The notes: generated from the sequence alone by a model not told the origin. Positions 13,464-26,252 are shown, counted from the stretch's first letter. The stretch is 64,000 nt of DNA from Candidatus Cloacimonadota bacterium (GCA_012516855.1 JAAYWB010000066.1:1-64000); one strand, 5' to 3'. Translations and numbers: made by a program.

Positions 13464-13901
13464 CTAATACTGTTTGCCAATCTTGCGGGTAAGGATCTCT
13501 ATGAGTTGCTCCTTCTCCTTCCGGTTTTTGGAAAAACGCAATGACTGACCTCTGAAGGCATCCAGGCGCCGGGGCAGCTTGAAAGTGCTGAGCATAATGC
13601 CACGCTTGTCGCAGTAAAAACAGCCGAAATCCTCGTAACGGCGCGCGATCTTTAGAAACAGATAGTAGATAACTATCTCATATTCAAACAGATAATAGGT
13701 AGTTGGAATGAAGTAGGGGAGAAGGTTGCCCAAAACAAGCAACATCCCCAGAAAATAGAACCAAGGCTGTTGCCATTGTTTTACAGCCAGATTCCAGAGA
13801 AACCAAGCCAGAAATATGAGAAAGGCCAGCAACAGGACAGAAGCCTTCGGTCGCTCCACAAATGGCCAGGAGCGCCATGTTAATAATGGTTCAGGCGACA
13901 T
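13464..13901 (-). CDS. Small two-helix membrane protein, unknown function
   Basis: A 145-residue protein with two hydrophobic segments (roughly residues 22-40 and 49-75) followed by a basic cytoplasmic-looking tail containing CFYC and several Lys/Arg clusters. I do not recognise the family. The ATG at 13901 overlaps the end of the yicC gene by 11 bases. Only 9 bases separate its stop from the rnr start, so it is part of the same transcription unit. Function cannot be inferred beyond association with the membrane. Confidence 0.6.
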   Translation of the reverse strand: MSPEPLLTWRSWPFVERPKASVLLLAFLIFLAWFLWNLAVKQWQQPWFYFLGMLLVLGNLLPYFIPTTYYLFEYEIVIYYLFLKIARRYEDFGCFYCDKRGIMLSTFKLPRRLDAFRGQSLRFSKNRKEKEQLIEILTRKIGKQY

Positions 13902-14766
13902 TCTGCACAATCTCCCGGCATTTTTCCACCTCTTCTTTGAGGATGAGGATATGGGTGTAGGTTTTGGTTGTAGAGAACTTCGAACCTAAGGTATTTGCTT
14001 CACGCTGCATTTCTTGCAGAATGAAATTCAAAGTCTTGCCGTTATCCTCGTCCTTTTCAATTGCGCTTAGCAGGGTGGAGATATGGCTGCGCAAGCGGGA
14101 AATCTCTTCCTGAATGTCATATCTGTCTATATAGATAGCCAGTTCCTGAATCAGCCTCTGCTCCAGATTTTCTGTACAGAAAGAATTAAGCAGTTCAGCA
14201 GTTCGTGTTTTCATGCTCTCGAACAGTTCTTCCTTATATGGTTTTATCAGTGCCTCGATAGCAGATAGGGCTTCCAGCATATGTTCACAGGAATCGCTAA
14301 GCACCTGGGTGATGTTATCTGCTTCGGCTGAAAGGGACTTTACGAGGTTCGCCAACGCTTTGTCCAAGGTATTGTGAAGCATTTCATTAAGTACCCTGTC
14401 CTCATCAAGGTTATTGGCGTTTTCAATGATCCCTGGTTCATTCAACAGAAATTCAAGGGATACCTGTCCAGTCATGCCCAAGACGGAGGCTGCCTCTTCA
14501 ACAATCGCATGATATTTTTCAAGCTTTGCTTTGTTAAGCAGGAGACGAGGTTCGCGATGGTCGGTGAAATTGATCCTGGCTTCGACGGTTCCCCGTTTAA
14601 GAGTAGCTGCTATTTGTTTGCGAAGGATGTGTTCGAAAAAACTAATTTCACGCGGTAGGTAGAGCCTCAGGTCCAGATATCTTCCGTTGACGGATTTCAG
14701 TTCGATTTCCAGATCGATGTCATTGGAATGAACCTTGGCAACTCCATAGCCTGTCATGCTTTTCAT
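13891..14766 (-). CDS. yicC: YicC-family endoribonuclease
   Basis: A 291-residue YicC protein with the diagnostic N-terminus MKSMTGYG and the SVNGRYLDLR stretch near residue 25, plus the conserved C-terminal DUF1732 region (NFILQEMQREANTLGSK). YicC proteins are hexameric endoribonucleases implicated in small-RNA and mRNA turnover. The ATG at 14766 is preceded by AAGGAA. It sits upstream of RNase R in the same orientation, making a plausible RNA-decay grouping. Regulation is not evident; 117 bases separate it from the upstream miaB. Confidence 0.92.
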   Translation of the reverse strand: MKSMTGYGVAKVHSNDIDLEIELKSVNGRYLDLRLYLPREISFFEHILRKQIAATLKRGTVEARINFTDHREPRLLLNKAKLEKYHAIVEEAASVLGMTGQVSLEFLLNEPGIIENANNLDEDRVLNEMLHNTLDKALANLVKSLSAEADNITQVLSDSCEHMLEALSAIEALIKPYKEELFESMKTRTAELLNSFCTENLEQRLIQELAIYIDRYDIQEEISRLRSHISTLLSAIEKDEDNGKTLNFILQEMQREANTLGSKFSTTKTYTHILILKEEVEKCREIVQNVA

Positions 14767-14883: not shown

Positions 14884-16158
14884 TTAGCATATCAGAGTCC
14901 CTGGCGTGGCTTTGATCACTTTGGCCGTTTTGAGTTTGCCGATGTCATTGACGCTCCCGCTCAGAACGGCGATCTTGTAATCGCGGGTTTTGCCGGAAAC
15001 CATTTTATCAGATTTTTTGCTGATGCTTTCCACATAGACCTCCACAGTTTTGCCAACTTGGGCGGAAAACTTAGCCAGGGTGATTTTGCGTTGTAGCTCG
15101 ATCATCTTTTGCAGGCGTTTCAGTCGTTCCGTTTCCGGTATTTGGCCTGGCAAACTGCAGGCGGATGTGCCTTCGCGTTCGCTGTATTTGAAACAAAAGG
15201 CATAGTCAAAATTTACTTCACTCATAACATCCAGAGTATCAGCGAAATCAGCTTCGCTTTCACCGGGAAAGCCGGCTATCAGGTCTGTGGTAAGGGCAAT
15301 TCCGGGTATGGAAGTTCTCAGTTTGTCCACCAGCTTCAAGTATTTCTCGATCGTGTACTTGCGGTTCATGGCTTTCAGAACAGAGTTGTTGCCGCTCTGC
15401 AGAGGAAGATGGAGATGCTCGCAAACCTTATCGCTGCAGGCCATAGTCTCAATTAGAGAATCTGAAAGGTCTTTGGGATTGGAAGTGATGAAACGGAGCC
15501 TATATATGGAATCAATATTGTTCAGATCCTTCAGCAAACGTGGAAAGTCGAAATCACCCCAACTGTAGGAATTGACATTCTGTCCAAGTAAAGTAACGTC
15601 TTTCAATCCCTTGTTACCGCATTCACGAACTTCTGAAGTGATTTGCTGGAAATCCACGCTTCGTTCACGTCCCCGTACGTGTGGCACGATGCAGTAGGAA
15701 CAGAAATTGTCGCAGCCTCGCATGATGGTAACGAAAGCGCAGGTTTTGTCACCATGCAGGGGACGCAGACCGGGATAGATCTGCTGATAGTTGAATTCCG
15801 TTTCCACTCCGCTGTCTTGACTCAACAAAGCAGGAAGCTCTTGATATTGGTCCACCCCAACCACAAAGTCCACTCCGATATCGTTTTCCAGCAGCCTCTG
15901 CCCCATTCTTTGAGCCATGCAACCGATCACGGCGATTTTCAGTTCTGGGTTTTGTGATTTGCGGTGCAATTCATTGGAAATACGCCCCAACACCCTGTCT
16001 TCGGCGTGTTTGCGCACAGAGCAGGTATTGAAGAGGATGAGGTTGGCAGTGTCAATACTGGAGGCAATCTCCCATCCGGCGCCAATCAGTATGGAACTGA
16101 CCAATTCGCTGTCCGATACGTTCATCTGGCAGCCATAGGTTTCAATGTAAAACTTCAT
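14884..16158 (-). CDS. miaB: tRNA-2-methylthio-N6-dimethylallyladenosine synthase (MiaB)
   Basis: A 424-residue radical SAM methylthiotransferase that adds 2-methylthio to i6A37 of tRNAs reading U-starting codons. The N-terminal cluster cysteines are C10, C46 and C80, and the radical-SAM CxxxCxxC is C149/C153/C156 (CDNFCSYC). The C-terminal TRAM domain (about residues 365-424) binds tRNA. The ATG at 16158 gives the canonical MKFYIETYGCQMN start. The gene begins 17 bases inside the end of the upstream fusion gene. The alternative RimO is excluded by overall motif layout, with moderate certainty. Confidence 0.93.
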   Translation of the reverse strand: MKFYIETYGCQMNVSDSELVSSILIGAGWEIASSIDTANLILFNTCSVRKHAEDRVLGRISNELHRKSQNPELKIAVIGCMAQRMGQRLLENDIGVDFVVGVDQYQELPALLSQDSGVETEFNYQQIYPGLRPLHGDKTCAFVTIMRGCDNFCSYCIVPHVRGRERSVDFQQITSEVRECGNKGLKDVTLLGQNVNSYSWGDFDFPRLLKDLNNIDSIYRLRFITSNPKDLSDSLIETMACSDKVCEHLHLPLQSGNNSVLKAMNRKYTIEKYLKLVDKLRTSIPGIALTTDLIAGFPGESEADFADTLDVMSEVNFDYAFCFKYSEREGTSACSLPGQIPETERLKRLQKMIELQRKITLAKFSAQVGKTVEVYVESISKKSDKMVSGKTRDYKIAVLSGSVNDIGKLKTAKVIKATPGTLIC

Positions 16159-18127
16159 TCCTTTGGCGCTTGTGTTTCTTCCAAAGATTGTATCCGCTAG
16201 ATATTCCATGATGGCAAACAATAAATTCCGAAGCGCAGAATTTGTCCAGCAGAAGCGTGTAAAAGAGGGCGCTGAGTCTTAGAAAAGGAAGGGATTGCTT
16301 TTCCACAGACCAGCGTTGTATTTCGTCTGTTTCGTCCCCAGCGGCAAGATTTATGAACTCCTCCAGTTCCTGTCTGGAAATGGTCAAGCCGTGGATTTTC
16401 TCAGGTTGGTATTTGGGTATCTGTTTGATTATCTTGGCAAGGAAAACGGCAGACAGCCCCACGCAAATCACGAGGTCCGGTTTGGTATCCGGAACCTCTT
16501 TCAAGTGGCGCCGAATCAGCTTCTTAACGTCAACTCCTTCTTGCTGGGCTTGGTTGAGAGTAAGCAATCCAATCGGCAAGCTTGTCATCGGTGGTTTATT
16601 ATTGTCACCCTTGGAAACTATCTCGGTTGAAAAACCACCAATATCGATAATGACAGCCTGCCTGTCCTGTGGAATTAAATCCAGGGCTGCCAGGGCTGCC
16701 AGTTCAGCTTCTTCCCAGCCGTTGAGCACTTTGTAGGGTGCGTTCCAACGCTTTTGAAACCAGGCAGCAAGGTCATCTCTGAAATCACCCCGGCGGTGGA
16801 TTCCTGTTGCGAGCACCTGTTTTCTGGAGGCAATATCACGATCAAAACGCATAAAAGCAGAAACCGAGCGCTTGAACTCTGCAATTTGCCTGGCAGGAAT
16901 TATCACACGTCCGTCCTGCATCTCATGATACTTTTGCCCCAGACCGGTTTTTATCTGCGCTGTATGGATGGGCACCGCCTGCCCGGATTCGCAGAGCGCG
17001 TAGTTTAGATTGTTGGACCCCACATCAAAGACCGAAATCAGCTTCTTGCCGCCATGCTTTTGTTCCATGAAGCGTTGGATGATCAGCGATGCGATGGCAG
17101 CATTGGCATTGGGAACCTTTTTTGCCGGCTTCTGGTCTCGAATTGTTCCAAAAACGCTTTTCCACTCAGCTTTGGAAAGCAGCAAATGCGGCAATTCAGT
17201 TTTGGCTGGATAGCTGGCGATGCCTCGGATCAGGACATCCTCCTCGGGATAGTTGGTGCGGGGGCTGAAGATGAGGTGTTTTCCGTTTTGAATGGCTTCC
17301 GCGAAGCTGCCATAACCGGGTTTGGTCAGCAGTATGTCCGCCACGGAAATCAGGGCGGAAAAATCATCATCCTGGCTGACCCGGAAATGGTTAGGTCCCC
17401 CAGTCTGGTCCAAGGTGCTGGCAACGGTTCCATCAAAAGCGGCGCAAAGCTTCTTCAGTTCGATCTCCATCTCCCCCGCCCCTCCAAAGGAACATACCAA
17501 AAGGGGCTTCTCTGAATCAATGCCAATATCCTTTTTCAAATCAGGGTTTGGCTTACTTTTGCGAGCCAACAGCCCGGTTTTTTCTATTTTGCGAAAACTC
17601 CCCATGCTCTGAGGCGAGCTCAGCGGCAGCCGAAAAGCGCGGTCCACCCTCTGATAGAGACCAAAGATGGTGTTCAGTACCGGCCTCATATCCTTGAGAC
17701 CATGGAACAGGCGCTCGTAAATAAACAGCCAGTCGAAATTGGAAATGGCGAAAACCGGGACATCTGCGTAGGTGCCAGCTTCCACAGACAGCCAGGGAAT
17801 GTCGGCAATTATCAGGTCGATCTTTTCCCTGCGCAGAAAATCCACCTCTTCTTCCACAATTTCCAGCCTTCTCCCCATCAAGTCCAACAGAGCGGTCCGG
17901 GTTGCCTCCAGATCGATGCCGAGGTTTTTTCCGTGCTTAACACCAACATCACAGGCCTGGGGGTGGATTTCGCTGTAATTTGGGTCAAGAGTGCGCCAGA
18001 GGAATTCCGGCCTGGCGCTGCGGATGTGCGTGAAGATGCCGAAGCGGATAAATTCCTCCGCCAGAGCGGCCATCCGGGTTGCATGTCCAAAGCCGTGGTC
18101 GGAAACGTAAATGGCGAAATTGAGCAT
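16142..18127 (-). CDS. Glycosyltransferase-like domain fused to Ppx/GppA phosphatase domain
   Basis: A 661-residue two-domain protein. Residues 1 to about 350 look like a GT-B glycosyltransferase. The opening HGFGHATRM and the later SNFDWLFIYERL and TKPGYGSFAEAI stretches resemble the glycosyltransferase-like half of plant L-arabinokinase and bacterial relatives. Residues from about 360 form a Ppx/GppA (exopolyphosphatase/pppGpp phosphatase) ASKHA domain, with phosphate loops FDVGSNNLNYAL and IDIGGFSTEIVS. The typical Ppx motif is DIGSNS, so the first loop is slightly altered. Both halves read in one uninterrupted frame. The substrate is unknown; a nucleotide-sugar-linked or polyphosphate-sensing role is a guess. 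It is followed directly by miaB. Confidence 0.8.
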   Translation of the reverse strand: MLNFAIYVSDHGFGHATRMAALAEEFIRFGIFTHIRSARPEFLWRTLDPNYSEIHPQACDVGVKHGKNLGIDLEATRTALLDLMGRRLEIVEEEVDFLRREKIDLIIADIPWLSVEAGTYADVPVFAISNFDWLFIYERLFHGLKDMRPVLNTIFGLYQRVDRAFRLPLSSPQSMGSFRKIEKTGLLARKSKPNPDLKKDIGIDSEKPLLVCSFGGAGEMEIELKKLCAAFDGTVASTLDQTGGPNHFRVSQDDDFSALISVADILLTKPGYGSFAEAIQNGKHLIFSPRTNYPEEDVLIRGIASYPAKTELPHLLLSKAEWKSVFGTIRDQKPAKKVPNANAAIASLIIQRFMEQKHGGKKLISVFDVGSNNLNYALCESGQAVPIHTAQIKTGLGQKYHEMQDGRVIIPARQIAEFKRSVSAFMRFDRDIASRKQVLATGIHRRGDFRDDLAAWFQKRWNAPYKVLNGWEEAELAALAALDLIPQDRQAVIIDIGGFSTEIVSKGDNNKPPMTSLPIGLLTLNQAQQEGVDVKKLIRRHLKEVPDTKPDLVICVGLSAVFLAKIIKQIPKYQPEKIHGLTISRQELEEFINLAAGDETDEIQRWSVEKQSLPFLRLSALFYTLLLDKFCASEFIVCHHGISSGYNLWKKHKRQRNEVLH

Positions 18128-18137
18128 TAAGTATGCC

Positions 18138-18503
18138 TCACTGGACTATCAGGCCGCGCTCAGCGCTCCGGGAGCGGATTTCCACCACCACCCGGTTTGG
18201 CAGGCAAACAATCGGAAGCACGTCTCCAGCTCCCTGTTTTACGCAGCGATGGTCAGGGCAATCTGCTGACAGCATCCGCACTTTGCTGTTTTTGATCTCC
18301 ACCGTGTTATGCTCGTCTATGCGGACAACGCGGTCCTGGTTCAGAGGATAGGAGCCAAAGGCCAAGTTATCCTTATATATGTAAACCCGTCGCTGATCCT
18401 CTTTCTTTATGAAAATGAAGGCACTGGCAATGATGGCTGCCAGAACGGCCAGGATCAGCAGAAAATCTGCGAGGCTCATATATTCCCGCAGGCGACGTAA
18501 CAT
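18138..18503 (-). CDS. NusG domain II-like membrane-anchored protein
   Basis: A 121-residue protein with one N-terminal transmembrane helix (about residues 10-32) and an extracytoplasmic domain of the NusG_II type. SADCPDHRC and IVCLPNRVVVEI are the family signature, with the cysteines well placed for a disulfide. Such proteins often neighbour isoprenoid or quinone genes or Gx-type transporters, but here the neighbour is an AmrS-like radical SAM gene. The ATG at 18503 overlaps that gene's stop as TGATG. Function is unknown; the domain assignment is fairly secure. Confidence 0.8.
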   Translation of the reverse strand: MLRRLREYMSLADFLLILAVLAAIIASAFIFIKKEDQRRVYIYKDNLAFGSYPLNQDRVVRIDEHNTVEIKNSKVRMLSADCPDHRCVKQGAGDVLPIVCLPNRVVVEIRSRSAERGLIVQ

Positions 18504-19501
18504 CAAAACACCCCATAGATCGGCTGGGAGCAGTGGGAACAGCATCTGCCGGCTTTCAGGGCAAGCGGCTGTCTGCGCGCGGAAATAACTTCCGAAGAGC
18601 ATTTCGGGCAAAGGGTGGCGTGGAACTCCGCGGAAAGGATGTTGCCGGCATAAACATAATCCAGCTTGCCTGAGGCGATCCGGCAAGCCTGAAGAACCGT
18701 GCTTTCCGGGGTTGACGGGATTTGAGACCTGAAAGCGGGATGATAAGCTGAAAAATGCAGCGGTATCCTCCTGTCCAGGCCTGCCACATAATCCACCAGT
18801 TCTTTGATCTCGGCTTCTGAATCGTTCAACCCGGGAATCAGCAGATTGGTCAGTTCCAGATGCACGCCCTCCCCCATCACCCTCTCAATGCTCTTCAGAA
18901 CAGGCCCCAGGCGTGCTTCACAGTGTTTTTCGTAAAAATCCGGGCGAATCGATTTGAGGTCTATATTCATCGCTTTGATATGGGGCAACAGTTCATCCAG
19001 GGGTTTCGGATTGATGAAACCGTTGGTCACCAGCACGATGTCAACCTCTGGCGCCTGGCGCGCGAAATCGTAAACATATTCATACCAGGTAAGCGGTTCT
19101 GTATAGGTGAACGCAACCTGCAGTGGCCCGTCCCCGCATTTCCTCAGCACCAGTTCCTTCAGTTCCATCGGGCTAATAATAATGGTTGGGCATCCTTGCT
19201 GGCTGCTTTCGGAGTTCTGGCAGAAAAAGCAGCTTAGGTTGCAGGAATTTGAACCCAAGGATACGATTTTCGAACCGGGGCGGAAATGATAGAGAGGCTT
19301 CTTTTCGATGGGATCGAGCGCCATTCCGATGCTGCGGGCATAATTGACCGCTATCAGCTTGCCGTCGATGTTCTTGCGCCCGCGGCAAAGCCCACTCTCC
19401 CCCACCTCCAGATGGCAGCAATGCGGGCAAAGCAAACAGCGCACAGCCTGGCCTTCCATTTTTTGGAAATGCATGCACTCGTGTTCGTTTGTCTCTCTCA
19501 T
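18503..19501 (-). CDS. amrS: AmmeMemoRadiSam system radical SAM enzyme (AmrS-like)
   Basis: A 332-residue radical SAM protein. An N-terminal cysteine cluster (CLLCPHCC at 22-29 and C39) precedes the radical-SAM CxxxCxxC at C87, C91 and C94 (CNLSCFFC), and extra cysteine pairs (CPKC, CSHC) form a C-terminal zinc-ribbon-like end. The family is AmrS/PflA-like COG1180. The partners AmrA and MEMO are not in this window. The ATG at 19501 has GGGAG about 9 bases upstream; the ATG at 19474 is an alternative giving a start closer to other members. Reading further upstream in this frame only translates the tRNA-Asp gene and its terminator. Confidence 0.85.
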   Translation of the reverse strand: MRETNEHECMHFQKMEGQAVRCLLCPHCCHLEVGESGLCRGRKNIDGKLIAVNYARSIGMALDPIEKKPLYHFRPGSKIVSLGSNSCNLSCFFCQNSESSQQGCPTIIISPMELKELVLRKCGDGPLQVAFTYTEPLTWYEYVYDFARQAPEVDIVLVTNGFINPKPLDELLPHIKAMNIDLKSIRPDFYEKHCEARLGPVLKSIERVMGEGVHLELTNLLIPGLNDSEAEIKELVDYVAGLDRRIPLHFSAYHPAFRSQIPSTPESTVLQACRIASGKLDYVYAGNILSAEFHATLCPKCSSEVISARRQPLALKAGRCCSHCSQPIYGVF

Positions 19502-19540
19502 TCGTTCAGGTCTCCCGGTCAGGAGGGATCCGCTCTCCCT

Positions 19541-19568
19541 CAAAAAAAAAGATGCCGTTTCCGGCATC
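19541..19568 (-). terminator. Rho-independent terminator after tRNA-Asp
   Basis: On the minus strand a perfect 7-bp stem (GATGCCG/CGGCATC, 19551-19568) with a 4-base loop is followed by nine T (19542-19550). It lies 10 bases beyond the tRNA 3' end and before amrS, so amrS is read through or starts from its own promoter. Confidence 0.85.
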
Positions 19569-19577
19569 CGAGTATTA

Positions 19578-19655
19578 TGGCGGGAGCGACGAGACTCGAA
19601 CTCGCGGCCTTCTGCGTGACAGGCAGACGTTCTAACCAAACTGAACTACGCCCCC
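19578..19655 (-). tRNA. tRNA-Asp (GTC)
   Basis: A 78-base cloverleaf with encoded CCA end. The acceptor stem GGGGGCG pairs with CGCTCCC with one G-U pair. The anticodon stem TCTGC/GCAGA closes the loop CTGTCAC with anticodon GTC, and the T arm is GCGAG TTCGAGT CTCGT. The minus strand is the coding strand. It is a single tRNA gene with its own terminator. Confidence 0.95.
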
Positions 19656-22858: not shown

Positions 22859-23340
22859 TCTATCTTGTCTCCGACGTCTATGTCGTGTTTTTGGGCGAGG
22901 CCGGCATTGATCTCCAAAACATATCTGTAAATGCCGTCCGGCTTTATCTGTTCGGTGCTGAAAGGCACTGTGTCACGCGCGATGTTCAGAACACGCTGAT
23001 CCGCGTCAATAAAAATGATATCCAGCGGCATGTAGGTGTTCTTCATCCAGAAATAGGTGTTTGAAAGTCCTTCCGGATCAAAGAGCATGCCGTGGTCCGG
23101 GGCCATTTCCTCACGGTACATCAGCCCCTGCATGGTGGCTTCCGGAGTGGCGGCTATCTCCACTTCAAACCTGGCTTTGACGCTGCCGTTCGGGGCTGAA
23201 ACCGTCAGGGTTGCGTCATGGCGGAATTCTGTGCCGGGCATGGTTTCGGGCACGGATTCTTTCTCCTTGTGCTTGCAGGCGCTCAGAACCAAGCAAAGAA
23301 GCAAAGCAAGGGATATAATAAGGATCTTGCGTACCATCAT
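22843..23340 (-). CDS. DUF192 lipoprotein
   Basis: A 165-residue lipoprotein with lipobox LSAC near residues 19-22 and a complete DUF192 domain. Visible landmarks are TMQGLMYRE, MLFDPEG, YFWMKNTYMPLDIIFID and VLEINAG. DUF192 proteins are small envelope or cytoplasmic proteins of unknown function. The ATG at 23340 overlaps the M14 carboxypeptidase stop as ATGA, so it is coupled to that gene. Confidence 0.88.
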   Translation of the reverse strand: MMVRKILIISLALLLCLVLSACKHKEKESVPETMPGTEFRHDATLTVSAPNGSVKARFEVEIAATPEATMQGLMYREEMAPDHGMLFDPEGLSNTYFWMKNTYMPLDIIFIDADQRVLNIARDTVPFSTEQIKPDGIYRYVLEINAGLAQKHDIDVGDKIEWTTD

Positions 23341-26252
23341 TTCATCAGGATCATTTTACGGACCTGGCTTTTGCCGCCACTTACAAGTTTGCAGAGGTAA
23401 ATGCCGCTAGCCACAGGCAGGCCATTGTCGTCCAGTCCATTCCAGACTGTTTGATGGCTGCCCTTGGCCGTCTGTCCATTAAGCAATGTTTTCATTAACT
23501 GCCCGCGGGTGTTGTAGATACCCAGCCAGGCCTCTTGGTCTTTAGGCAGGGAAAATTCGATCCGGGTGCTCGGATTGAAGGGATTGGGATAATTCTGCTG
23601 AAGGACAAAAACAGCCGGAGGCTCTACCAAGTCTTCATTAGCCACGCTGGATGGCAAATTCAGCACATCGGACTGGCCGTTGACGCTGTAAGCAAGGTTT
23701 ATTCCAGGCAGGGAAGTGTTGTAAGCAAAAGCGAAACTCAGGTTTCCGCTGCCTCCAAGCTGCGCATGGGCGTATTTCAACAGATGGGGGTTGAACGCTG
23801 AAATACCGTCGAAAATGTCCCCGCTTGGGGTGACCTCCGAATTCGTAACGCCATCCTGGGGAAGCAGTTGCCAGTCTATGCAATAAAACTCTCCTGCCGG
23901 AGTTCCACTCACCACATAATATATGAAACTTGGGTCGTCGATATGCTCTGCATTCAGCGATACGGACGGCAAAACAGCCTCTTCCCCACTCTGGGCTTGA
24001 AAGCGGAACTCTGGGTCATACAAATACTGACCTATCAACCAGGCGTCCTTGGAATCCAAAACCAGGCTCAGGTCAACATCCGCAGCGGTTACCCGTTCCG
24101 TTGACCAAGGCAGGGAGTCGATATCGGGCAGGGGATCAAAACCAACAGTGTAATCGATCACGGCCTGGGCGTCCTTCACACTGATCAGCCCGTCGCTGTC
24201 CACGTCGCCAAAAACAATCTGGTCTGCCCCAATGCCAGCCACGGTTATATCATCGAGGTAGATGCCATCGCCGTTCACGCTCCAGTCAGAATCCAAAGCA
24301 AAGCGGATGTAAACATTCTGACCTGAGAATTGCTGCAGGGAATAGCTGAAATCCTGCCAGTCAGCCTGGGTGCCGGTAATCCGGCCCAGCTCCGTCCAGT
24401 TGGAGGTAGTGGTCGAAGCCTGCACCAGCACGAAATCGTAGCCGTTTTCAAGATCGTAAACAGCCTTGAAGCTAAGCGTTGGTTCAATTATATTTTGCAA
24501 GGAGATAGGATTAGTGATGCGAAGTATTCTTAGAGTATTATTGGCGTAATTACCAGAGGGTGAATCTGTTATCACGCTCTCACCCATGTGGGTCACCGCT
24601 GCCCAAGGGCCGTTGGCGGTCCAGTTGGTGATGCTTTCGCAGGAGTCGTAAAAGCTTTGCTGCGGTTCGATTTGCACAAAAACAAGACGGTTGTTAAACA
24701 TCGTGAGCAGGATGTCCTGTTCGTGCACCAACTGGTTTCCAGACCTAAAAGTTATATGATACTGCCCCTCGGGGATGCCGCTGAAAACGAAGCAGCCCAG
24801 GGCATCGGCGGTTGCGTTGCTGGCTGGCACAGTATCAATGCTCACACTCACTCCGGGTATTCCAAAGCCGTCTATGTCCCTAAGCTGACCTATGAGGTCA
24901 ACTGCCTGGGCTTCGTCAAGCACAAAGTTGTATTCAACAGAACCTGAGACAGGCACAGTGATATCCACAGTTTGAGGCAGGTAGCCCGGAGCGGAGGCCG
25001 TAACAGTATAAGTCCCAGGCAATAACAAGCGGTGAAAGTCTCCCACAGCGGGATCGGTGTGCATCACCTTGGCGTTGCCCTGAACCGTGATTGTGGCGCT
25101 CAGCGGGCTTCCAGACTGCGAAGTAACAAGGCCGTGAATGCCGCGTTGGGCGAACTCCATAAAGCTCAGCATCGATTCCTGATTTTGCGCCCAGAAAGTT
25201 GGCAGTTGCGATGCTGGCGGCCATTTGTTGTTGCTAATCTCCAAGGTTATGTCCATGCAGTCGGTGAAGCCATAGTTCCAATCCTGCATGGAGCCGGTGA
25301 TGACATACCATTCAGCTCCGTTAGTGATGCCCTGGTTAAATTCCGTGCTGTTGTACATGGGCAGGTTGTGGCGGGCGTAGGTAAGCGCGGCTTCGATCAG
25401 CAGAGCGTTGTCGGGGGCAAGTGCGAAGGTGTAATCCCAAGGGTAGTTCGCCACCAGCGCTCCGCCGTGATAATTTGCTGAAAGCACGAAGTTGTGCAGG
25501 TTGCCAAAGTCCATCACGGCTATGGTTTCATGCGCCCAGGGGTTGCCGTCGGGATGCTGGTTCCCTCCGAAAGGCATGGGAAAATTGCGGTTAAGGTCGA
25601 TCCCCGTTGCGTTGAAGCGTTGCCCCAGCACGAATCCGTCTGGATTCAGCATCGGGCAAATCCAGATCTCGGTGTTGTTCACTAGATTTGAGATTCTGGT
25701 ATTATTGCCGTATTCGGAGGTGAGCAGTTGGATCAGGCGGATGCACATATCGTAGCCCACAACTTCATCGCCGTGGATGGAAGAGATGAATTTGAACTCT
25801 GGCTCAGCTTCCTCGAGGGAGGGATTGTCCGTAATCTTCATAAAGTAAAGCGGCCTGCCCTGCACAGAGGTTCCTATCTGGCTCAGGGAGCAGATGTTGG
25901 GATACTGCGCGGCGGTATCCAGCATGAACTGATTGTATTGGGTGATGGTGTAATAATCATCTTTGGGTGCGTCTTTGGAGCTGTTCTGATGCAGGCGGGC
26001 GGCGTTTTCCCGCGCCAAATCTGGAAGTTTCTCAGCCGAGAAACCCTCATCCAACAACAGTGCCATTTCGCTGTCGTCCCTTAAATAGACAACGATGGTC
26101 CCGGTGGCACGGTTCACATTGTCCACGTTGATATTATGCGCGTTGAGGGTCTTTAGGTCCCTGTCAACATTCCAGCTATTGATCCGGGCTGGAAAGGCAA
26201 TGGCCAGCGCGCTCTGCAACACCAGAAAGAGGATGAGTGAGTGTTTTTTCAT
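23337..26252 (-). CDS. Secreted M14 zinc carboxypeptidase with dockerin-like module and T9SS sorting domain
   Basis: A 971-residue exported protein. A signal peptide covers residues 1-20. The M14 peptidase domain spans about 100-370, with zinc ligands H160, E163 (HGDE) and H262 (NYHGG), the substrate-binding N221-R222 (LNRNF) and catalytic E338. Next come two carboxypeptidase-regulatory-like beta domains (about 370-530), a jelly-roll domain (about 535-670) and a dockerin-like pair of DxDxDG calcium loops (about 678-745). The Por/T9SS type A C-terminal domain starts near 882 (NYPNPFNPST) and ends RKMILMK. The ATG at 26252 has AAGGAG upstream. It probably reaches the cell surface through the SprA system encoded downstream. 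Confidence 0.92.
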   Translation of the reverse strand: MKKHSLILFLVLQSALAIAFPARINSWNVDRDLKTLNAHNINVDNVNRATGTIVVYLRDDSEMALLLDEGFSAEKLPDLARENAARLHQNSSKDAPKDDYYTITQYNQFMLDTAAQYPNICSLSQIGTSVQGRPLYFMKITDNPSLEEAEPEFKFISSIHGDEVVGYDMCIRLIQLLTSEYGNNTRISNLVNNTEIWICPMLNPDGFVLGQRFNATGIDLNRNFPMPFGGNQHPDGNPWAHETIAVMDFGNLHNFVLSANYHGGALVANYPWDYTFALAPDNALLIEAALTYARHNLPMYNSTEFNQGITNGAEWYVITGSMQDWNYGFTDCMDITLEISNNKWPPASQLPTFWAQNQESMLSFMEFAQRGIHGLVTSQSGSPLSATITVQGNAKVMHTDPAVGDFHRLLLPGTYTVTASAPGYLPQTVDITVPVSGSVEYNFVLDEAQAVDLIGQLRDIDGFGIPGVSVSIDTVPASNATADALGCFVFSGIPEGQYHITFRSGNQLVHEQDILLTMFNNRLVFVQIEPQQSFYDSCESITNWTANGPWAAVTHMGESVITDSPSGNYANNTLRILRITNPISLQNIIEPTLSFKAVYDLENGYDFVLVQASTTTSNWTELGRITGTQADWQDFSYSLQQFSGQNVYIRFALDSDWSVNGDGIYLDDITVAGIGADQIVFGDVDSDGLISVKDAQAVIDYTVGFDPLPDIDSLPWSTERVTAADVDLSLVLDSKDAWLIGQYLYDPEFRFQAQSGEEAVLPSVSLNAEHIDDPSFIYYVVSGTPAGEFYCIDWQLLPQDGVTNSEVTPSGDIFDGISAFNPHLLKYAHAQLGGSGNLSFAFAYNTSLPGINLAYSVNGQSDVLNLPSSVANEDLVEPPAVFVLQQNYPNPFNPSTRIEFSLPKDQEAWLGIYNTRGQLMKTLLNGQTAKGSHQTVWNGLDDNGLPVASGIYLCKLVSGGKSQVRKMILMK

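Follow-up and report, generated by a model that had tools for sequence, protein, structure and literature searches.

What might a bacterial cell do with a single protein that joins a glycosyltransferase-like domain to a relative of the exopolyphosphatases? The question is raised by a gene in a 64,000-nucleotide stretch of DNA from a Candidatus Cloacimonadota bacterium (GCA_012516855.1, JAAYWB010000066.1:1-64000), hereafter called "the window". A sequence-only reading of the window had described one uninterrupted frame in which a GT-B domain, resembling the front half of plant L-arabinokinase, is joined to a Ppx/GppA domain of the ASKHA fold, and had suggested nucleotide-sugar or sugar-phosphate handling tied to polyphosphate or alarmone turnover. 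We find that the 661-residue fusion is genuine and that both domain identities are borne out; the tie to polyphosphate or alarmones finds no support. As a tentative explanation, we favor a nucleoside diphosphate (NDP)-sugar glycosyltransferase joined to a hydrolase of small phosphoanhydrides, most simply of the NDP that the glycosyltransferase half would release; we infer both substrates as well as their coupling.

Is the fusion real? The frame lies on the minus strand, a point on which the sequence-only reading was silent; on the plus strand, positions 16142-18127 are interrupted by stops, and that reading was rejected. The same fusion stands open in more than 40 Cloacimonadota genomes from independent assemblies, covering other genera and families and including the RefSeq contig NZ_SMOG01000024 of Candidatus Syntrophosphaera thermopropionivorans W5. 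We therefore reject a sequencing or assembly artefact that joined two neighboring genes. The AlphaFold2 model of the full protein, built from 22 sequences, predicts one unit (predicted local distance difference test score, pLDDT, 91.4; predicted template modelling score, pTM, 0.92), and its Foldseek matches are Ppx/GppA structures, with Aquifex 1t6c at the top (7e-20), and GT1 glycosyltransferases. Both halves are supported by models, Foldseek and profiles, and the N-terminal half is predicted to have a GT-B/GT1 fold rather than an unrelated one.

How does the front half compare with known glycosyltransferases? The single sequence is too divergent for the Pfam cut-off (PF04101, sub-threshold, E 0.2), and TIGR00661, the model of the MJ1255/VC2487 glycosyltransferases, matches 20 of the 22 family members (best 1.1e-11). 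The isolated half was modelled with a pLDDT of 95.3, and the nearest solved structures are GT1/GT-B enzymes, several of them bound to uridine diphosphate (UDP); the best is 9ksz, with UDP bound (2.8e-14). The features expected of the GT-B fold are present: two Rossmann-like domains in the models, a histidine near the N terminus (His15) and a donor-site glutamate (Glu277). His15, which is kept in all 40 aligned Cloacimonadota rows and in all 39 rows from outside the phylum, is the putative catalytic base by comparison with MurG and GT1 enzymes. Lys269, Gly271, Tyr272 and Glu277 are conserved within and outside Cloacimonadota in the alignment, and the comparison with MurG-type GT-B enzymes suggests that they belong to the NDP-sugar donor site. 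Moreover, the invariant residues His11, His15, Asp60, Asp109, Trp133, Lys269, Glu277 and Glu295 are common to the stand-alone relatives in cyanobacteria and proteobacteria. The half thus shares its GT-B fold, HGxGH start and donor-site motif with MJ1255/VC2487, with MurG/GT28-like GT-B enzymes and with the stand-alone ARA1-N-like glycosyltransferases of Pseudanabaena and proteobacteria. The latter are mostly about 355-390 residues long, whereas the Cloacimonadota half is joined to a Ppx half. The genes next to the stand-alone relatives outside the phylum show no common partner apart from a Pseudanabaena-specific cluster, and a plasmid collection searched for the glycosyltransferase half gave no match.

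The resemblance to plant L-arabinokinase extends over the whole front half. A BLASTP comparison with the corresponding half of Arabidopsis ARA1, in a provisional sequence rather than the database entry, gave 25% identity over 378 residues (E 1e-30). We compared the positions conserved both in the Cloacimonadota fusions and in the stand-alone relatives outside the phylum. Nearly all of them agree, and the provisional ARA1 sequence carries the same residues at H11, H15, R18, D60, G62, D109, N130, W133, Y137, K269, G271, Y272, E277, R290 and E295, together with the HGFGHATR start and the SNFxWxFIY, K-x-GYG-[ST] and EE motifs. Plant ARA1/CAP1 and the fusion are thus alike in that a GT-B front half of one kind is joined to a phosphoryl-transfer domain, and a logic common to plants and Cloacimonadota is possible. 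The back halves differ. In the plant protein it is a GHMP sugar kinase; the C-terminal half of the fusion is a Ppx/GppA hydrolase of the ASKHA type, with no GHMP kinase domain. On the broader idea of the sequence-only reading, sugar-phosphate handling, the glycosyltransferase-like half would bind or release a sugar that the ASKHA half phosphorylates or dephosphorylates. This idea draws on the shared pairing of front-half family and phosphoryl-transfer domain, on the sugar kinases that the ASKHA fold includes, and on DAHP synthase, a sugar-phosphate enzyme and a long-standing neighbor of the gene. However, GHMP kinases and ASKHA hydrolases do not share a related fold, even the plant front half has a function described only as "putative" (PMC12281597), and the residues of Ppx-type hydrolysis are kept. 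We consider sugar-phosphate handling unlikely.

What does the back half retain of a Ppx/GppA enzyme? PF02541 matches residues 435-642 of the window's protein (7.6e-15; 55.5 bits against a gathering cut-off of 27) and all 22 family members. TIGR03706 matches residues 364-646 (1.5e-26) with 93.4 bits, below its curated cut-off of 307, which is strict: only one of the ten control genomes with a match passes it. In addition, a search with the family profile finds the Aquifex Ppx/GppA structures at about 1e-43. Residue roles were taken from DrPPX (PMC11234463) and mapped by motif, without alignment to DrPPX itself, and residues were counted in 36 fusions, in 60 members of the fused and related group, and in 15 canonical Ppx proteins.

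First, the hydrolytic core is kept. DrPPX residues D7, N11, R86, E114 and D136 correspond to D368, N372, R445, E473 and D495, which are present in all 36 fusions, as are G498 and T441 (one Ser). S500 (DrPPX S141) is found in 35 of the 36; at E502 (DrPPX E143), 32 fusions have Glu, three Gln and one Asp. The D7A, E114A, D136A and E143A mutants of DrPPX lost most of their activity (PMC11234463). Second, the residues that hold polyphosphate are largely gone. The position of DrPPX Ser12 is Asn in 35 of 36 fusions versus Ser, Thr or Ala in all 15 canonical proteins; the His14 position is basic in none of the 60 group members versus 15 of 15; and the loop arginine, counted as the conserved arginine of the canonical proteins and not matched one-to-one with DrPPX K35/R37, is kept in three of 60 versus 14 of 15. 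The arginine of the REG motif is mostly replaced by Ser, Ala or Gln in the group. The combination that holds polyphosphate—the Ser of GSNS, the basic residue two positions after it, the loop arginine and REG—is therefore not found. Judged by these residues, the Ppx half represents a subfamily of its own, with its hydrolytic core kept and its polyphosphate grip lost. The unfused proteins of one family (f13) keep Ser12 (GTNS), yet their basic positions are already gone, and so the change of substrate is probably older than the fusion. The short-form Ppx/GppA phosphatases (TIGR03706; Aquifex 1t6c/2j4r; Mycobacterium tuberculosis Rv1026) resemble the back half in fold, two-domain size and catalytic residues. 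The fusion differs from them in having GSNN for GSNS, in lacking the basic chain-binding positions and REG, and in its added N-terminal GT-B domain.

Could the Ppx half nevertheless act on polyphosphate or on guanosine pentaphosphate (pppGpp)? We searched 41 genomes, the window's own and 40 relatives, of which 27 are near complete. Neither of the polyphosphate kinases PPK1 and PPK2 was found in any of the 41, while the same searches were positive in seven and eight of 14 control genomes, respectively; a RelA/SpoT domain was found in seven and in none of the other 34. Membership of the Ppx/GppA family and the intact hydrolytic core would suit an exopolyphosphatase or pppGpp phosphatase, the specific suggestion of the sequence-only reading. 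Against this stand the absence of both kinases, the few RelA/SpoT domains, the loss of the gripping positions and the separate canonical Ppx paralogue in the window's genome (contig 70), and we regard either activity as highly improbable. As separate observations, the only RelA_SpoT domain among the searched genomes of the window's family is in the window's own genome, in a short 343-residue frame (C14:9529-9927). Canonical-type Ppx paralogues at two loci (L190 and L228) adjoin an approximately 216-residue protein and a permease-like protein, which at L190 matches a sulfate permease model below the cut-off; these neighborhoods possibly serve phosphate or sulfate uptake.

We propose that in Cloacimonadota the fusion serves as a cytosolic enzyme with two functions. 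Its front half, a GT-B enzyme of the ARA1-N family, would use a nucleotide-sugar donor. The back half would be a Ppx/GppA-derived hydrolase, in which comparison indicates intact water-activating and metal-binding residues and a loss of most polyphosphate-holding residues that had already occurred in unfused relatives. Because the core is kept and the grip is lost, its most likely reaction would be to remove the terminal phosphate from some small phosphoanhydride. In the simplest coupling, the hydrolase would remove the NDP, such as UDP, released by the glycosyltransferase half, thereby relieving product inhibition and making the transfer irreversible. The nucleoside diphosphatases of the GDA1/CD39 family, which have the ASKHA fold, do the same for the glycosyltransferases of the Golgi. 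They are like the back half in their hydrolase fold and, on our hypothesis, in clearing NDP made by glycosyltransferases; they differ in belonging to another family, in being lumenal and in being separate proteins. Rv1026, the Ppx-GppA homologue of M. tuberculosis, is active as an ATPase and ADPase and has no polyphosphate or pppGpp activity (PMC3411833); nucleotide hydrolysis is therefore within the reach of the Ppx/GppA family. Taken to its full extent, the proposal describes a self-clearing glycosyltransferase, with an NDP-sugar transferase and an NDP-destroying ASKHA hydrolase in series: in effect a bacterial version, acting in cis, of the Golgi enzymes, built from an ancestral Ppx relative linked to DAHP synthase. 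This complete picture is conceivable, though we hold it to be doubtful.

Several observations weigh against the favored explanation. In the window's family, the Ppx half carries further changes, DIGGG to DIGG[A/F/M] and GGT to GLT or GLS, with which it may be losing or changing its activity; activity there is therefore less certain than in the other families. The halves can also be separated. One genome (G013) keeps only the glycosyltransferase half, of 362 residues (L020:1044-2132; L020/L048), in the operon typical of the family, flanked by the NusG_II gene and miaB. Another (G029) has a 437-residue protein (L191:3640-4950) with a truncated GT-B remnant before a GTNN Ppx half, which from its sequence is a fusion in decay, and two families (f9 and f10) carry the Ppx protein alone. 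Coupling is therefore not obligatory. Finally, the Ppx partner is tied to DAHP synthase without any glycosyltransferase, which NDP removal does not explain.

Do the two halves form a sensor and an effector instead? In that case the GT-B half would recognize a nucleotide sugar or glycan, carry out no transfer, and control how active the Ppx-like hydrolase is; the roles could also be the other way round. The separability of the halves and the departure of the Ppx half from the canonical motifs in the window's family would agree with such a device, and regulatory or signalling proteins with the Ppx fold exist, as exemplified by Rtg2p (PMC5417653). A pure sensor, however, has no need of the catalytic and donor residues of the glycosyltransferase or of the catalytic Glu, Arg and Asp of Ppx, all of which are nearly invariant, and the probability that we give to this arrangement is low.

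When did the two halves come together? The glycosyltransferase half occurs in 48 of the 104 genomes of the phylum; fused homologues are spread through the window's family and are also found in several other families of the same order. Outside the phylum, 39 relatives were examined, from Pseudanabaena and other cyanobacteria, proteobacteria, Nitrospiraceae and further groups, and none of them carries a Ppx half; the relatives considered were the best 80 of 179, and fusions elsewhere may exist among the 99 weaker ones. The Cloacimonadota glycosyltransferase halves form one clade in the tree (100/100), which argues for a single origin, and the data are consistent with the fusion having arisen once. 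The tree of the Ppx halves is ambiguous, with the window's family set apart on long branches. A single clade of all fusions in that tree is not rejected by the approximately unbiased (AU) test (p-AU 0.43), and with the single clade of glycosyltransferase halves, two independent fusions are not favored. The Ppx half is a descendant of a stand-alone protein, encoded in other families directly upstream of DAHP synthase.

How close is the link to DAHP synthase? Its gene comes next behind 17 of the 41 Cloacimonadota loci with a glycosyltransferase half, in other families and some genera; not all loci are complete. The two genes mostly overlap slightly or lie at most about 50 bases apart, and TIGR01361 is above its cut-off where scanned. 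In f9 and f10, which have no glycosyltransferase half, the stand-alone Ppx protein (GTNN, once GTNK) is encoded directly upstream of DAHP synthase at 18 loci; these were chosen for holding a PF00793 protein, so that the rate is biased, and several DAHP synthase loci in the two families have no Ppx-like gene. Fused or alone, the Ppx-like gene is thus directly upstream of DAHP synthase on the same strand at 35 loci in several families, most with gaps near zero or overlaps. This arrangement, with chorismate synthase nearby at one locus (L161), would fit a Ppx-like half that is a housekeeping partner of DAHP synthase and aromatic synthesis, as a regulator or salvage phosphatase; the glycosyltransferase half would then be a later addition that serves a different, unrelated step. 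On the other side, a search of the window's genome for PF00793 proteins found none, and so neither a DAHP nor a KDO8P synthase of this type, whereas most genomes of the phylum carry one or two; the fusion is therefore not dependent on DAHP synthase. In most genera of the window's family the fusion has no DAHP synthase gene next to it, and the nearest stand-alone relative, the GTNS protein of f13, adjoins ispG instead. A partnership with aromatic synthesis is, in our judgment, quite improbable as the explanation of the fusion. In f9, the stand-alone Ppx-like gene typically follows BamA-like and NYN-domain genes.

In the window's family, the gene order is conserved across genera: amrS, the NusG domain II gene, the fusion, miaB, yicC and onward (Table 1). 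The likely ATG of miaB is at 16158, which gives a 17-base overlap with the end of the fusion gene. Elsewhere in the window, positions 13464-13910 encode a 148-residue protein without a Pfam match, between yicC and a 764-residue gene, in a position conserved across the family. By eye, the translation of positions 23337-26252 reads as a large, secreted protein resembling carboxypeptidases, whose C-terminal domain is of the sorting type (NYPNPFNPST).

Table 1. Coordinates of the fusion gene, its parts and the associated genes
Feature	Position	Strand	Remarks
GT-B/Ppx fusion gene	16142..18127	minus	661 aa; ATG start; internal stops, 0; stop codon 16142-16144
GT-B half, aa 1-357	17057..18127	minus	Takes in most of the C-terminal helix 342-358 leading to the Ppx half
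HGFGHATR motif, aa 11-18	18074..18097	minus	His15 where GT-B enzymes have their catalytic base
TKPGYGSFAEA, aa 268-278	17294..17326	minus	Putative NDP-sugar donor site with E277
Ppx/GppA-like ASKHA half, aa 362-646	16190..17044	minus	PF02541, TIGR03706, Foldseek 1t6c
PHOSPHATE-1 motif DVGSNN, aa 368-373	17009..17026	minus	Last residue Asn; Ser/Thr (one Ala) in canonical Ppx
Glu473	16709..16711	minus	Corresponds, with numbering by motif, to the catalytic Glu114 (DrPPX) and Glu121 (E. coli Ppx); invariant in all rows
PHOSPHATE-2 motif DIGGFSTE, aa 495-502	16622..16645	minus	D495, S500, E502
miaB (tRNA methylthiotransferase)	14884..16221	minus	Directly downstream of the fusion; Radical_SAM, UPF0004, TRAM; conserved synteny
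NusG domain II protein	18138..18686	minus	Directly upstream of the fusion, 10 bases between; PF07009 2.5e-22; conserved synteny
amrS (AmmeMemoRadiSam-system radical SAM enzyme)	18503..19639	minus	Upstream, same operon; TIGR04337 273.9 bits, above cut-off
f9/f10-type Ppx-DAHP synthase loci	L159-L164, L166, L168-L170, L172-L175, L177, L183, L184, L197		Recurrent gene pair

A literature search, with subscription journals mostly outside its coverage, found nothing on the fusion or on the pair of Ppx and DAHP synthase genes. The domain architecture and the GSNN subfamily of Ppx appear to be new, while both folds are known. The recurrent pairing of a Ppx-like gene with DAHP synthase constitutes an unexplained link to aromatic synthesis, and each part of the system is small, predicted to be soluble and directly testable. 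The fusion also supplies an independent partner for the glycosyltransferase-like domain of the plant arabinokinase, a domain with no more than a putative role so far. With the grip lost and the hosts without a known polyphosphate kinase, the "exopolyphosphatase" annotations of this Ppx subfamily are probably wrong.

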